Source: Burkholderiaceae bacterium
Lineage (GTDB): Bacteria; Pseudomonadota; Gammaproteobacteria; Burkholderiales; Burkholderiaceae_C
Reading direction: 5' to 3'
NCBI GenBank assembly: GCA_024710165.1
Contig: JANJVG010000024.1
Span: 1 to 64,000 of the forward strand
Length of the DNA: 64,000 bases
Under the pieces are notes generated by a model that was given only the letters and a program-made list of their open reading frames with translations, was not told where the DNA came from and made no database searches. Of this stretch, positions 12,224-18,646 are shown piece by piece. The first letter of the stretch is position 1, and every line of letters begins with the position of its first letter. The translations under genes and the position numbers were made by a program.

Positions 12224-13093
12224 ATGAAACGCATCATCCTGTTCCTGTTGACCAACATCGCCGTCGTGGCGGTGCTGGGCATTGTTGCCAGCCTGCTCGG
12301 CGTGAATCGCTTCCTCACGTCCAACGGACTGAACCTGGGCGCGCTGCTCGGCTTTGCGTTCATCATGGGCTTTGGCGGCGCCATCATTTCGCTGCTCATC
12401 AGCAAGCCCATGGCCAAGTGGAGCGCCGGCGTGCAGATCATCGACGGCACGCGCTCGGTGGACGAGGCCTGGATCGTTGAAACCGTGCGCCAGTTTGCCG
12501 ACAAGGCCGGCATCGGCATGCCCGAGGTCGGCATTTTTGAGGGCGACCCCAATGCCTTTGCCACCGGCGCTTTCAAGAACTCGGCCCTGGTCGCCGTGTC
12601 CACCGGCCTGCTGCAGAACATGACCCGCGAGGAAGTCGAGGCCGTCATCGGCCACGAGGTGGCGCACATCGCCAACGGCGACATGGTCACCATGACGCTG
12701 ATCCAGGGTGTGATGAACACCTTTGTGGTCTTCCTCTCGCGCGTGATCGGCTACGCGGTCGACAGCTTTCTGCGCAAGGGCGACTCGGAAAACACCGGCC
12801 CCGGCATCGGCTACATGATCACCACCGTGGTGCTCGACATCCTGCTGGGCTTTGTGGCCGCCATCATCGTGGCCTGGTTCTCGCGCCAGCGTGAATTCCG
12901 TGCCGACGCCGGTGCCGCCCAGCTCATGGGCCGCCGCCAGCCCATGATCAACGCTCTGGCCCGCCTGGGCGGTGTGCACACGCAAGAGCTCCCCAAGAGC
13001 ATGGCCGCCATGGGCATCGCCGGGGGCATTGGCAAGCTGTTCAGCACCCACCCGCCGATTGAAGAGCGCATCGCCGCGCTGCAAAAATCCTGA
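12224..13093 (+). CDS. htpX: protease HtpX (M48B)
   Basis: 289 aa; [30 protein letters not shown] zinc motif. Confidence 0.96.
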
Positions 13094-13198
13094 CCGTTTT
13101 CAGGGTTTCCCGAGGTCATTTCGCGAGCGGAAGGCCTCCAATTCCTTTATATACTCCCACCCGGCATTTTCGTTACGCAACGTAAAAGAGAGGGTGGG

Positions 13199-13561
13199 AT
13201 GCTTCGTTCAAAATCTCTGGCGGCTTCGGTGCTCCTGCTGGCTGCCCTGGGCGCGCACGCGCAGGGTTTCGTGACCGCACCCATGGGATCGCGCACTGCG
13301 CTCAAAGCCTACCCCGATGCGGATGGCAAGAGCGAGCCAGCGACTTTGCATGTCAAAGACATTGCCTTTCCGCTCCAGGTTTTTGAGATTTCGGATGCTG
13401 GATTCGTGCGTGTCAAGGTCGGCGGAGCCGATGTCTGGCTGGACCGCAAACAAGTCCGCATGCCCCCTGTCTCGCTGGAAGTCACTTGCGCAACGGTCGA
13501 TGCCTCCAACGCCAAACTGGTGTCGGGTGGCATTCGTGGCGCCAATGCGGGTTGCAAGTAA
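13199..13561 (+). CDS. secreted small protein, SH3-like
   Basis: Signal peptide MLRSKSLAASVLLLAALGAHAQ then FEISDAGFVRVKVGGADVWLDRKQV (SH3b-like). Confidence 0.65.
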   Translation: MLRSKSLAASVLLLAALGAHAQGFVTAPMGSRTALKAYPDADGKSEPATLHVKDIAFPLQVFEISDAGFVRVKVGGADVWLDRKQVRMPPVSLEVTCATVDASNAKLVSGGIRGANAGCK

Positions 13562-13609
13562 TTTTTCTGGCCTTCGCCTGCTGGGCGGGCGCATTGCAGG
13601 AGCTTTGGC

Positions 13610-15199
13610 ATGATCAAGGTATATTCGTCGCCCGCAGGGCGTCCATGTGTGCTCGTTGGTGCCGCACTCAGTGTGTTCCTGCTCATGCCGATGCAGGCAT
13701 CAGCCCAGGACCAGGCCATCGAACCGGCGCCGGTATCCCCGTCTGGCGGTGGACTGGGCAGTTTCCTCGGCGGTCTTGGTCAATCCTTCACCAGCGTCGT
13801 GTCCGGCTTCCGTGACAAGCCGCAGATCCTTGATTTGGCCCCGGGCGTGTACCAAAAGTCGAATGAGGCGATTGGAGAAGAGCGGGATGTTGACGAAAAC
13901 CGGATTACACGCGGGCTGTTGGCGCTGCCCAGCTTTACCAATTACGCCAACAACGTGCTGGACAAGCTCAAGCGGGCCAGTGGGGTTGAGCAGGTGCCGG
14001 GCAAAGTGCTTATCGTGGCCAACGACCAGATGGACGCCGGTGCCACGGCGGATGGCAATGTTTTCATTTCCAGCGGTTACATCCGTGAGTTGAAAAACGA
14101 AGACCAGTTGGCGGCGTTGCTGGCCCATGAGCTTGCACATGTGCTGCTCAAGCACCATGACTCCAACGCCTTCACTCGCATCCAGAAGCAGGTGTCCTCG
14201 CTCTTGCAGGCGGGCGTGGGTCTTCGAAATGCAGTGGAAAAGGCTACAGGGGGTGCTTCATCCAATGCCCTGTCCCCCTCGCAAAAAGACCTGATTCTCA
14301 AAATGGAGCTGCTCATCAAGGTGAGCGATGTTGCGCTTCATCCTGCCTGGGGACGGCGGCAGGAGGCTGAGGCGGACCGCCTGGGCATGGATCTTCTGGT
14401 GAAGGCCGGTTACAGCTACCAGGAGGGGTTTATTCCCTGGCTTGAAGCGGTGGCCAAATGGGATGCGATGCTCGATGCCCAGCGTGCTGCCAACGCGGCC
14501 AAGCAGGACGTGTTGATGCAGTCCATGCTGGAGACGGGCAGGTTTGACGAGACGCTGAAACAAAGCCTGGGGTTTGCCCTGACAGAGGCAAAGTCCCAGC
14601 TCTCTGCCAGTCATGAAGGCGGTGAGAAGCGTCTTGCCGACATGGATGCCTATTTCATCAAGGCTTACAACGAAAACGTACCCCAGGTGACACCAACCGT
14701 CCAGCCGTATGTGCAGGCCAGAAGCCAGCGGGACGTTCTGCCCGTGCTCACGGCGTACAGCCGGGTGTTTCAGGCCCGCAATCTGATCGGTGATCAGAAA
14801 TATGCTGATGCGCAAGCGCTCTTGAAACCCCTTGTGGAACCCCGTTCCCCCATCGCATCCCATGCACTGCCCAATCAGTTGATGTTCGAAGCAACCAGGG
14901 GCCTGGGCGGCACTGCCCGAGCAGAGCCATTTCTGGTCAAGAGCCTGAGTTCGGATAACTCTGTCTGGGAGGTCTATGACTCGGCGGCAACCTACTACCG
15001 TGACAAGGGCGACGTGGGCGCGATCACCAGGGTGGGAAAAGGCGCATTTCAGCGTTTTTCTGGGGCTCCCTCGGCCTATCCAAAGTTGATTGCTCTTTAT
15101 CGCCGCAATGGCCTGGCCAAGGACATGAACTCGGTGTTGAGCGAGTGCCTGCTCAAGCAGGCCGACAAACGTGACCAGTGCGTTGATGCAGCCAAGTAA
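13610..15199 (+). CDS. M48 family metalloprotease with C-terminal repeat region (BepA-like)
   Basis: 529 aa; signal peptide, LLAHELAHVLLKHHDSNAF zinc motif. Confidence 0.85.
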   Translation: MIKVYSSPAGRPCVLVGAALSVFLLMPMQASAQDQAIEPAPVSPSGGGLGSFLGGLGQSFTSVVSGFRDKPQILDLAPGVYQKSNEAIGEERDVDENRITRGLLALPSFTNYANNVLDKLKRASGVEQVPGKVLIVANDQMDAGATADGNVFISSGYIRELKNEDQLAALLAHELAHVLLKHHDSNAFTRIQKQVSSLLQAGVGLRNAVEKATGGASSNALSPSQKDLILKMELLIKVSDVALHPAWGRRQEAEADRLGMDLLVKAGYSYQEGFIPWLEAVAKWDAMLDAQRAANAAKQDVLMQSMLETGRFDETLKQSLGFALTEAKSQLSASHEGGEKRLADMDAYFIKAYNENVPQVTPTVQPYVQARSQRDVLPVLTAYSRVFQARNLIGDQKYADAQALLKPLVEPRSPIASHALPNQLMFEATRGLGGTARAEPFLVKSLSSDNSVWEVYDSAATYYRDKGDVGAITRVGKGAFQRFSGAPSAYPKLIALYRRNGLAKDMNSVLSECLLKQADKRDQCVDAAK

Positions 15200-16862
15200 G
15201 CCGCACGGCGCATCGTGGCGCTGGGATGTCTACGTGGTCGTGTGTACGGTGGTCACGGGCCTGTTTTTGGCGTGGCTGTCCAACAAACTGCTGGTTGATG
15301 AGGTCGTCAAGCGGGCCATGACCCGGGTCTATGCGCCCTTGCTGTCCTTGAACTACCCGGTCAGCGGCCAGAACAGCATCGCTGTGCTGACGGTGGACGA
15401 CTCGGACCTCAGAGAATACGGACTGAGCTGGCCGGTACCGCTGGATTTTTACCAGCGCCTGATTGATGGTGTCGTCAAACGCCAACCCAAGGCGATATTT
15501 CTCGATGTGGTCTTTCTGGACAATAAACCGCCCCGAGATATCGATGCATTGATCGGGGCTGCTTGCCGTTCCGCCGAAGCAGGCGTTCCGTTTTTGCAGG
15601 CAACCTTTGCGCGTGGCGCGCTCACCTCCAATGTCGAGCGCCGGCTGTTCGAAGCGCGCACGGCATCGGGTCTGCCTTGTGCTGAACCGGTTCGCTCCAA
15701 CGTGACGCCGGATTCCCTGGACCAGTCACAGTGGGCCTATCCCTTGCGCCCCCGTACGGAGGATGAGGCGAATCACAACGGCAACTTGCCGGATTCGGTG
15801 GCCCTCAGCCTCTACTGCCGTTTTTATGCTGCCAGCTGTCCGGCGGATACCCAAGTGCCGCTGGCGCTGGTATGGGCCACCCGTGCGGCGACGACCAACA
15901 TGGAAACCATGGTCACACGCGACGCCAGCGGGGCCTTGAAATCAGTCTGCCGCGGTTTATGGAACTGGTGGGAAGTGATTCCGGGGGCCAACTTGTTGCT
16001 GGGCTTGGCGGGCCATCCCAGTCTGCCTTTGTGCCCCTATCACCAGGTGATTCCGATCCGTGCATTCAAAGGGCAGGGTTTTTCAGCGGATGAGCTGAAC
16101 GAGGCAATGACCAACAAGGTGGTCATGATCGGTGCTGATCTCAAAGCAGTGGGTGACAACGCCTTCTCGCCGTTACACGGTCGCTTGCCGGGCGTGCACG
16201 TTCATGCCATGGCGCTGGACAATCTGATTTCCTTCGGTGGACAGTACCGTGCCAACGGCGATTTCGAGTGGCAAGAGTGGTGGGATTCTCCGGCTAACAG
16301 GTTCATTTTCCTGAGCCTGCTGTTGACAGCTTCGGTGATGGTCTTCTGGAAGCGTTGGAAGGTTCGCGTCACCCCGCCAAACTTGTCCGGCGAGCTGGTG
16401 AGTCAGGGTGATTTTCATCAGTGGCCTCTGGTGCGCAGGCTTCAGGGTGTGGGTGACCGTTATCCGGGGAATCGGCCTATCAGGGCCTTGGTATCCGGGG
16501 GGATGGTGTGCATCAAGGTCCTGGTTCGACTGCCCATGCTGCTTGCCCTGCCGCTGTTGCTGGTTTTGGGCTGGCCCCGCCTGGGCTCAACCGAAAAGTC
16601 GCGCCATGAATTCAAACAGGCGCTCTGGGGTGCCGTGATTTACCTGGTGCTTGGAGGCGTGGTGTTTTACCTGGGCTACTACGTGTTCTTTCAGGGGCCC
16701 CTGTCCATCATCGAATATGTGCTCTTTCCCCTGATGTCGCACTTCTTGCACCTGGGTGAGCAATTTGCAAACCGCTCCAGGCAACTCTGGTCCGCTCTTG
16801 GTGCCTCCAACCCCTGGGCCGAGTGGGCCCGTCAATCCAGCAAAGCACATCGCGAACCCTGA
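15186..16862 (+). CDS. CHASE2 domain-containing membrane protein
   Basis: Extracytoplasmic region PVSGQNSIAVLTVDDSDLREYGLSWPVPLDFYQRLIDGVVKRQPKAIFLDVVFLD (CHASE2), C-terminal TM segments, no kinase/cyclase domain; alternative GTG start at 15171. Confidence 0.8.
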   Translation: MQPSKPHGASWRWDVYVVVCTVVTGLFLAWLSNKLLVDEVVKRAMTRVYAPLLSLNYPVSGQNSIAVLTVDDSDLREYGLSWPVPLDFYQRLIDGVVKRQPKAIFLDVVFLDNKPPRDIDALIGAACRSAEAGVPFLQATFARGALTSNVERRLFEARTASGLPCAEPVRSNVTPDSLDQSQWAYPLRPRTEDEANHNGNLPDSVALSLYCRFYAASCPADTQVPLALVWATRAATTNMETMVTRDASGALKSVCRGLWNWWEVIPGANLLLGLAGHPSLPLCPYHQVIPIRAFKGQGFSADELNEAMTNKVVMIGADLKAVGDNAFSPLHGRLPGVHVHAMALDNLISFGGQYRANGDFEWQEWWDSPANRFIFLSLLLTASVMVFWKRWKVRVTPPNLSGELVSQGDFHQWPLVRRLQGVGDRYPGNRPIRALVSGGMVCIKVLVRLPMLLALPLLLVLGWPRLGSTEKSRHEFKQALWGAVIYLVLGGVVFYLGYYVFFQGPLSIIEYVLFPLMSHFLHLGEQFANRSRQLWSALGASNPWAEWARQSSKAHREP

Positions 16863-16915
16863 TTCCTGTCGCGAAACGTGCGCCGCTCCCTTCCCAGGCC
16901 TGTGGCCGGGCCTGG

Positions 16916-18646
16916 TCAACCATTCAGCAGGCTGCTTGCCACGGCCTCACCCACCTTGATGCCATCCACCCCCGCCGAGAGGATGCCGCCCGCGTAGCTG
17001 GCGCCTTCGCCCGCCGGGTACAGACCGGCAGTGTTGAGGCTCTGGTAGTTTTCGCCCCGGCCGATCTTGAGCGGTGACGAGGTGCGCGTCTCCACGCCGG
17101 TGAGCACGGCGTCGTGCATGTCGAAGCCCTTGATCTTGCGGCCAAAGGCCGGCAGGGCCTCGCGCAGCGCCTCGGTGGCGTAGCCGGGCAGGGCCTCGCG
17201 CAGGTCGCAGGGCGTCACGCCGGGCTTGTACGAGGGCTCCACGCTGCCCAGCGCCTGCGAGGCGCGGCCCGCAATGAAGTCACCGACGAGCTGGCCCGGC
17301 GCGTTGTAGTTGCAGCCGCCCAGCACATACGCGTTGGATTCGAGCTGGCGCTGCAGCACGATGCCCGACAGCGGGTGGTGCTCGCCGTTCTTCAGCGTCT
17401 CCACGCCGTAGGTGGCGCCGAGCTGGGCCTCGAAGGCGGCGGGGTCGGTGGGGTAGTCCTGCGGATCAATGCCCACCACCATACCGGCGTTGGCGTTGCG
17501 CTCGTTGCGCGAATACTGGCTCATGCCGTTGGTCACCACGCGGCCGGGCTCGCTGGTGGCCGCCACCACGGTGCCGCCGGGGCACATGCAGAAGCTGTAG
17601 GCCGTGCGGCCGTTGCTGGCGTGGTGCACCAGCTTGTAGTCGGCCGCGCCCAGCAGCGGGTGGCCGGCGTGGCGGCCCCAGCGCGCACGGTCGATCACAC
17701 CCTGCGGGTGCTCGATGCGAAAGCCCACCGAGAACGGCTTGGCCTGCATGTGCACGCCGCGCGCGTGCAGCATGGCAAAGGTGTCGCGCGCGCTGTGTCC
17801 CAGCGCCATCACCACGTGGCGGGCCTCCAGCTCGTGGGTCTGGCCCGTGGCCTGGTCGAGCACGCGCAGGCCGCGCAGCTGGCGCCGTCCGGCGCCGTCC
17901 TGCTCGATCAGCACATCGGTCACGCGCTGCTGGAAGCGCACCTCGCCACCCAGCGCGATGATCTGCTCGCGCAGCGTCTCGACCACCTTCACGAGCTTGA
18001 AGGTGCCGATGTGCGGGTGCGCCACGTACAGGATCTCGGGCGGTGCGCCGGCCTGCACGAACTCCTCCATCACCTTGCGGCCCAGGTGGCGCGGGTCCTT
18101 GATCTGGCTGTAGAGCTTGCCGTCGGAGAACGTGCCCGCGCCGCCCTCGCCGAATTGCACATTGCTTTCGGGGTTCAGCGCACGCTGGCGCCACAGGCCC
18201 CAGGTGTCCTTGGTGCGCTCGCGCACCGCCCGGCCGCGCTCCAGCACGATGGGCCGAAAACCCATCTGCGCCAGCACCAGTGCCGCGAAGATGCCGCAGG
18301 GGCCAAAACCCACCACCACCGGGCGCTCGCGCAGACCGGCGGGGGCCTGGCCCATGGGGCGCCAGGCCATGTCGGGCGTGGGCTGGATGTGCGGGTTGAC
18401 GCTGTGGCGAGAGATCAGGGCCGCTTCCTGCGCCGGATCAGCGAGGGCGATATCCACGATGTACACCGCCAGCAACGCCGCCTTGCGCGCGTCGAAACTG
18501 CGTTTGAAGACCTGCAACGTGGCGATGTCGGTATCGGCCAGACCGAGCACCTGCGCGGCCTGGGCACGCAGGGCCGCTTCAGGATGGGTGTCGGGGTCGG
18601 ACGGCAGCGCGGACAGCGGCAGCCGGATTTCAGAGAGGCGGATCAT
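16916..18646 (-). CDS. NAD(P)/FAD-dependent oxidoreductase (COG2509-type dehydrogenase)
   Basis: 576 aa; RPVVVGFGPCGIFAALVLAQMG dinucleotide motif, SDGKLYSQIKD, YPAGEGASYAGGILSAGVDG. Confidence 0.88.
   Translation of the reverse strand: MIRLSEIRLPLSALPSDPDTHPEAALRAQAAQVLGLADTDIATLQVFKRSFDARKAALLAVYIVDIALADPAQEAALISRHSVNPHIQPTPDMAWRPMGQAPAGLRERPVVVGFGPCGIFAALVLAQMGFRPIVLERGRAVRERTKDTWGLWRQRALNPESNVQFGEGGAGTFSDGKLYSQIKDPRHLGRKVMEEFVQAGAPPEILYVAHPHIGTFKLVKVVETLREQIIALGGEVRFQQRVTDVLIEQDGAGRRQLRGLRVLDQATGQTHELEARHVVMALGHSARDTFAMLHARGVHMQAKPFSVGFRIEHPQGVIDRARWGRHAGHPLLGAADYKLVHHASNGRTAYSFCMCPGGTVVAATSEPGRVVTNGMSQYSRNERNANAGMVVGIDPQDYPTDPAAFEAQLGATYGVETLKNGEHHPLSGIVLQRQLESNAYVLGGCNYNAPGQLVGDFIAGRASQALGSVEPSYKPGVTPCDLREALPGYATEALREALPAFGRKIKGFDMHDAVLTGVETRTSSPLKIGRGENYQSLNTAGLYPAGEGASYAGGILSAGVDGIKVGEAVASSLLNG

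Follow-up and report, generated by a model that had tools for sequence, protein, structure and literature searches.

A CHASE2 protein without output domain encoded together with an SH3-like protein and a BepA-like M48 protease in Pseudomonadota

The beta-barrel assembly-enhancing M48/TPR protease BepA (YfgC) acts on LptD/BAM substrates. Its activity is controlled by a plug with the motif H-P-x4-R following the HExxH motif, the plug histidine binding the zinc (PMC7950410). CHASE2 domains have been described in receptors working together with proteins of the cell envelope, as in the case of the cyclases CyaD1, CyaD2 and CyaK of Sinorhizobium meliloti with the envelope protein NsrA (PMC13001267) and of a histidine kinase of Burkholderia with a LysM/FecR protein (PMC5192318); the ligands of CHASE2 domains are described as unknown (PMC5192318). 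A literature search, for which most subscription papers were out of reach, returned no description of CHASE2 together with an M48 protease or another metalloprotease. As far as we could see, the obligate combination of the three genes analysed here is undescribed, the component families themselves being known. The middle gene of the Caballeronia copy is publicly annotated as “hypothetical”.

The three genes and their predicted products

The window, i.e. the whole analysed stretch of 64,000 nucleotides, carries three consecutive genes on the plus strand exactly where the first-pass annotation had located them: an SH3-like gene (P0001, 13199..13561, 120 aa), an M48 protease gene (P0002, 13610..15199, 529 aa) and a CHASE2 gene with a GTG start (P0003, 15171..16862, 563 aa). 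The latter two overlap by 29 bases. The products of all three genes are predicted to be exported or membrane-located. Directly upstream of the trio the domain search detected an htpX-like M48 gene (12224-13093).

P0002 matches PF01435 with an E-value of 2.9e-19 (70 bits, cut-off 20.3) and shows the HELAH motif (residues 173-177) and the long C-terminal region that had been noted before, its C-terminal half being TPR-like. The proteases of the module retain their catalytic residues: all 16 of the M48 members match PF01435, and the HExxH motif and the glutamate zinc ligand are present in each of them (H173, E174, H177 and E252 are invariant). The plug extends from His335 to Arg341 in P0002 and reads HEGGEKR, which departs from the H-P-x4-R motif of BepA. 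The histidine and the arginine are found in 15/16 members and the proline in 2/16; the loss of this proline is a family-specific change in the activity-gating part. The profile of the M48 family aligns to the residues 55-431 of the 487 residues of BepA, i.e. through the TPR region, and also to consensus TPR structures over the positions 378-492, so that the M48-then-TPR architecture of BepA is present. The score of P0002 against the BepA equivalog model of NCBIfam (56.5 bits) lies far below the cut-off of 570. Inspection by eye revealed a lipobox in most M48 members and an ordinary signal sequence in the window and in the loci L006, L007, L019 and L022. The protease thus appears to be soluble in the periplasm in the clade of the window and lipid-anchored in most other members. 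The host genome encodes a second BepA-like M48 protein (G000:C105:4904-5347, open frame of 537 aa, matching the module profile at E 2.2e-16), so that proteins of this type are not confined to the module in the host.

P0001 carries a signal peptide, as recognised by eye, which agrees with the secreted protein proposed earlier. Its identity as an SH3-like protein is moderately supported. P0001 itself gave no Pfam match in the domain search, one of the 17 members of the family matches the bacterial SH3_4 domain at 8.7e-4, and the best PDB matches to its AlphaFold model (pLDDT of the core about 70-79) are SH3 domains with weak E-values (best 0.038, probability 0.99). The near-invariant cysteine residues 97 and 119 of P0001 correspond to a terminal pair which is conserved in all SH3-like proteins but those of L036 and of the odd L022 region; two C-terminal cysteines are likewise shared by the M48 proteins (the invariant residues 513 and 524 in P0002). 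According to their sequences, both pairs would fit disulfide-stabilised exported proteins.

The leader immediately 5' of the SH3-like start codon is predicted to pair into a hairpin (13155-13199; UCCCACCC...GGGUGGGA, inner stem TTTTCGTT/AACGTAAAA; -20.7 kcal/mol, z -2.5), which could exert translational control on this gene. It was discarded as a component of the module since it was seen in the window only and L006 and L007 are devoid of it. No RNA family was found at the locus, and a scan for promoters and terminators yielded nothing exceeding expectation.

P0003 matches PF05226 with an E-value of 5.7e-20 (72.4 bits, cut-off 26.3) and consists of an N-terminal transmembrane segment, the CHASE2 domain (residues 41-381) and C-terminal transmembrane segments; no other domain was detected, as the first-pass annotation had stated. 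All 17 scanned CHASE2 members of the module match PF05226 at E-values up to 0.1, L022 weakly, and follow the same layout, the CHASE2 domain being preceded by one hydrophobic segment at the N-terminus and followed by one to several at the C-terminus. None of the 17 carries an output domain of the cyclase, kinase, GGDEF or HD type. The same method does detect cyclase, kinase or HD domains in L003, L004, L038 and L033:2285-4279, and the CHASE2 matches without the trio (G001, G010, G1082) have cyclase or histidine kinase domains on the same chain. A truncated or decaying CHASE2 cyclase can be ruled out since all 17 members are intact and free of an output domain. The AlphaFold model of the CHASE2 protein, which was computed from a three-sequence alignment, is poor (pLDDT 35.5). 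Beside the trio of the genome G1093, on the opposite strand, lies a gene for an HD_5-containing CHASE2 protein (L033:2285-4279, plus strand), which is possibly a cytoplasmic partner in that genome only.

Recurrence of the trio

The survey of gene neighbourhoods revealed that the three families co-occur well beyond close relatives. Including the window, 18 loci encode a CHASE2 protein without output domain and have readable flanks, and the trio is complete in each of them (18/18), the partner genes being adjacent and on the same strand. Another CHASE2 gene (L023 in G496) is cut by the end of its contig and was excluded from all counts. The trio is sparse (about 1-2% of the genomes), and ranges over Beta-, Gamma- and Alphaproteobacteria with identities down to about 20%.

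The first scan with the CHASE2 protein retrieved metagenome-assembled genomes of Polaromonas (L006) and Rhodoferax (L007), which share the gene order of the window at about 60% identity in surroundings quite unlike those of the window. Searches at the level of the family, order and class added six loci (L008 and L018-L022), each with the trio in the order CHASE2, SH3-like, M48. Nine further loci were obtained by a search of the phylum with the CHASE2 profile and by tblastn against plasmids (L032-L037, L039 from Caballeronia, L040 from Photobacterium and L073 from the alphaproteobacterium Novosphingobium). Although these nine loci had contributed nothing to the SH3-like and M48 profiles that probed their flanks, the SH3-like and M48 genes were detected directly downstream of the CHASE2 gene in each of them. 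The weakest SH3-like matches (E 0.001-0.01 in L036, L037 and L040) are backed by position and size.

In the reverse test, a profile of eight M48 members was run on the sample of 399 genomes of the phylum that had been searched with the CHASE2 profile, and the result matched. Beside the host's own, the six best genomes (G988, G1093, G1120, G1022, G1097 and G899) were the very ones, six in all, that encode an output-less CHASE2 protein. Five of them are well separated (E 5e-74 to 1e-53) and G899 (3e-26) barely exceeds the M48 protein ranking next (5e-25). Lower down, ordinary M48 proteases are frequent (140 genomes at 1e-15) and unassociated with output-less CHASE2 proteins. The probability that two sets of six genomes coincide by chance is 1.9e-13 (hypergeometric), which is a rough value owing to the non-independence of related genomes. 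The first pass of both the CHASE2 and the M48 genome search scores few candidates per genome and either may therefore miss members.

An all-versus-all comparison of the open reading frames of 17 loci recovered the M48 and the CHASE2 family in 17/17 and the SH3-like family in 12/17 at the pairwise threshold, the remaining ones being recovered by the profiles. No fourth shared gene was found in this comparison, any other family being present in four or fewer of the 17 loci. The trees of the CHASE2 and M48 proteins have most groupings in common, and their distances are correlated (r 0.79, falling to 0.67 when two close relatives are left out; permutation p 1e-4); part of this agreement may reflect the host phylogeny. 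The usual gene order CHASE2-SH3-M48 is permuted to SH3-M48-CHASE2 in the window, L006 and L007, and since these form one clade a single rearrangement explains the difference. The trio is one unit. The reciprocal co-occurrence across classes, the shared order and the co-diverging trees bear out the module that the first-pass annotation had proposed from one locus.

Genomic site and mobility

The trio occupies a block between htpX and a gene for an FAD oxidoreductase. Its approximate extent (13087..16924) is given by the ends of the same-genus homology, which stops at 13074-13086 and resumes at 16925-16941. The junction is empty (76-114 bases) in the same-genus genomes G1133, G1135 and G1139 and holds other, unrelated cargo in G1134, G1136 and G1138; it is a variable site in the genus (L067-L072), and the cargo of G1138 includes a transposase-like open reading frame. 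The GC3 values of the three genes (0.645, 0.689 and 0.713) are lower than those of the nine flanking genes (0.754-0.92), in line with the less GC-biased codon composition reported before. The CHASE2 protein of the module is absent from nine same-genus genomes. Two of these gave weak matches (28% identity over about 80 residues) in frames of 680 and 796 aa, which resemble CHASE2 receptors of the ordinary kind. On the basis of these sequence comparisons the block is cargo acquired in the lineage of the host.

The link to htpX suggested by the first-pass annotation did not hold. The junction lacks the trio in the relatives and no htpX relative was detected in the flanks of the other module loci, which rules out a functional link; the neighbourhood of htpX is thus uninformative with respect to function.

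In Caballeronia, Photobacterium and Novosphingobium (L039, L040, L073) the trio resides on very large plasmids (0.9-2.1 Mb), all of which were typed as non-mobilizable. About 3 kb from the trio of Polaromonas two adjoining open reading frames (L006:7126-9499) resemble, by eye, an IS21-type transposase and its ATPase helper, and a umuDC-like pair, also recognised by eye, is situated between them and the trio.

Possible function and comparison with known systems

Since the CHASE2 proteins of the module lack an output domain and the loci share no cytoplasmic partner, the simplest reading is that the CHASE2 input is relayed in the periplasm to the adaptor and the protease, and such a periplasmic coupling fits the cooperation of known CHASE2 receptors with proteins of the envelope (NsrA, PMC13001267; LysM/FecR, PMC5192318). 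The trio quite possibly represents a self-contained, horizontally distributed envelope-proteolysis module in which the CHASE2 signal reaches the BepA-like protease via the SH3-like adaptor without a cytoplasmic second messenger, a reading which we prefer but hold tentatively. The CHASE2 protein would reside in the inner membrane and expose its CHASE2 domain to the periplasm, where the domain would receive a signal or bind a partner. The small disulfide-bearing SH3-like protein would relay the signal, without passage through the cytoplasm, to the M48/TPR protease, and the signal may alter either the location of the protease by docking or the opening of its active-site plug, the target presumably being an envelope protein. 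We infer the physical interaction of the products, the direction of control and the kind of target. The uncharacterised envelope-sensing/proteolysis module postulated by the first-pass annotation stands insofar as the module recurs and no publication on it was found; a sensory function of the CHASE2 protein, its control over the protease and envelope stress as the stimulus might be supposed. The CHASE2 protein could also be a mere membrane anchor or have its signalling partner at an unlinked locus. With more doubt, the trio may be regarded as a new type of signal transduction, in which an enzyme-less CHASE2 receptor drives a periplasmic zinc protease via an SH3-like adaptor and both sensing and response are extracytoplasmic.

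A constitutive accessory of outer-membrane biogenesis or quality control, i.e. an extra BepA-type protease with a CHASE2 dock and an adaptor serving one envelope client without regulated sensing, seems unlikely but deserves consideration given the BepA-like architecture, the lipobox in most M48 members and the separate BepA-like protein of the host, to which the module protease would be additional. However, the distribution in about 1-2% of the genomes is sparse for such a role, no client gene is common to the loci and conservation of the CHASE2 domain would hardly be expected in a mere anchor.

We regard it as rather improbable that the trio is a mobile conflict system cleaving incoming or damaged envelope proteins in protection against phages, toxins or competitors. 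The patchy distribution in surroundings that differ everywhere, the low GC3 and the insertion at a variable site in the host and the copies on megaplasmids would suit such a system, but a known defence system was rejected as none of the three proteins had a PADLOC match at E-values up to 1, a phage origin was rejected as no phage record matched, and no defence neighbour recurs among 17 loci.

It is more doubtful still that the CHASE2 protein, e.g. through heteromerisation of the transmembrane bundles, signals in trans to a cytoplasmic cyclase or kinase or to another CHASE2 receptor encoded at an unlinked locus, and that the protease tunes or ends the signal. Cyclase, kinase or HD domains do usually follow CHASE2, and the CHASE2-HD protein lies beside the trio in G1093, but the protein search gave only one CHASE2 match in the host genome and the loci have no recurrent cytoplasmic partner. 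That three unrelated genes have come to lie together by chance, or that they are linked to htpX, which is a neighbour in the host genome only, can practically be dismissed in view of the reciprocal co-occurrence, seen in 18 loci from three classes, and the empty htpX junction in relatives.

The trio, conserved at about 20% identity over three classes of Pseudomonadota, supplies probable partners and a likely output for CHASE2 proteins resembling enzyme-less receptors and defines a subfamily of BepA-like proteases with dedicated partners. As a compact three-gene system it would be transferable to a laboratory host, so that CHASE2 recognition becomes testable via a proteolytic read-out.

HtpX (M48B) shares with P0002 the M48 superfamily and the neighbouring position in the host; it is a polytopic membrane protein encoded by a resident gene of the genus outside the module. 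The E. coli envelope lipoproteins LoiP and YcaL, for which we know of no CHASE2 or SH3-like partner, are M48 proteases with a lipid anchor, a feature that most module proteases apparently share. The LoiP model gives weak matches to 14/16 module members (P0002 scores 31.3 bits, far below the cut-off of 365), and unlike the module protease LoiP and YcaL lack a TPR region (PMC7950410). BepA has in common with the module protease the exported M48 domain, the HExxH motif with the glutamate ligand, the C-terminal TPR region and the histidine and arginine of the plug, whereas the latter has lost the plug proline in 14/16 members, possesses the C-terminal cysteine pair, is often a putative lipoprotein and is always encoded beside CHASE2 and SH3-like genes. 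CyaD1, CyaD2, CyaK and the Burkholderia kinase resemble P0003 in the CHASE2 domain between transmembrane segments and in the envelope partner encoded or working alongside. Their output, however, is a cytoplasmic cyclase or kinase, whereas the CHASE2 protein of the module has none and its linked effector is a predicted extracytoplasmic protease.
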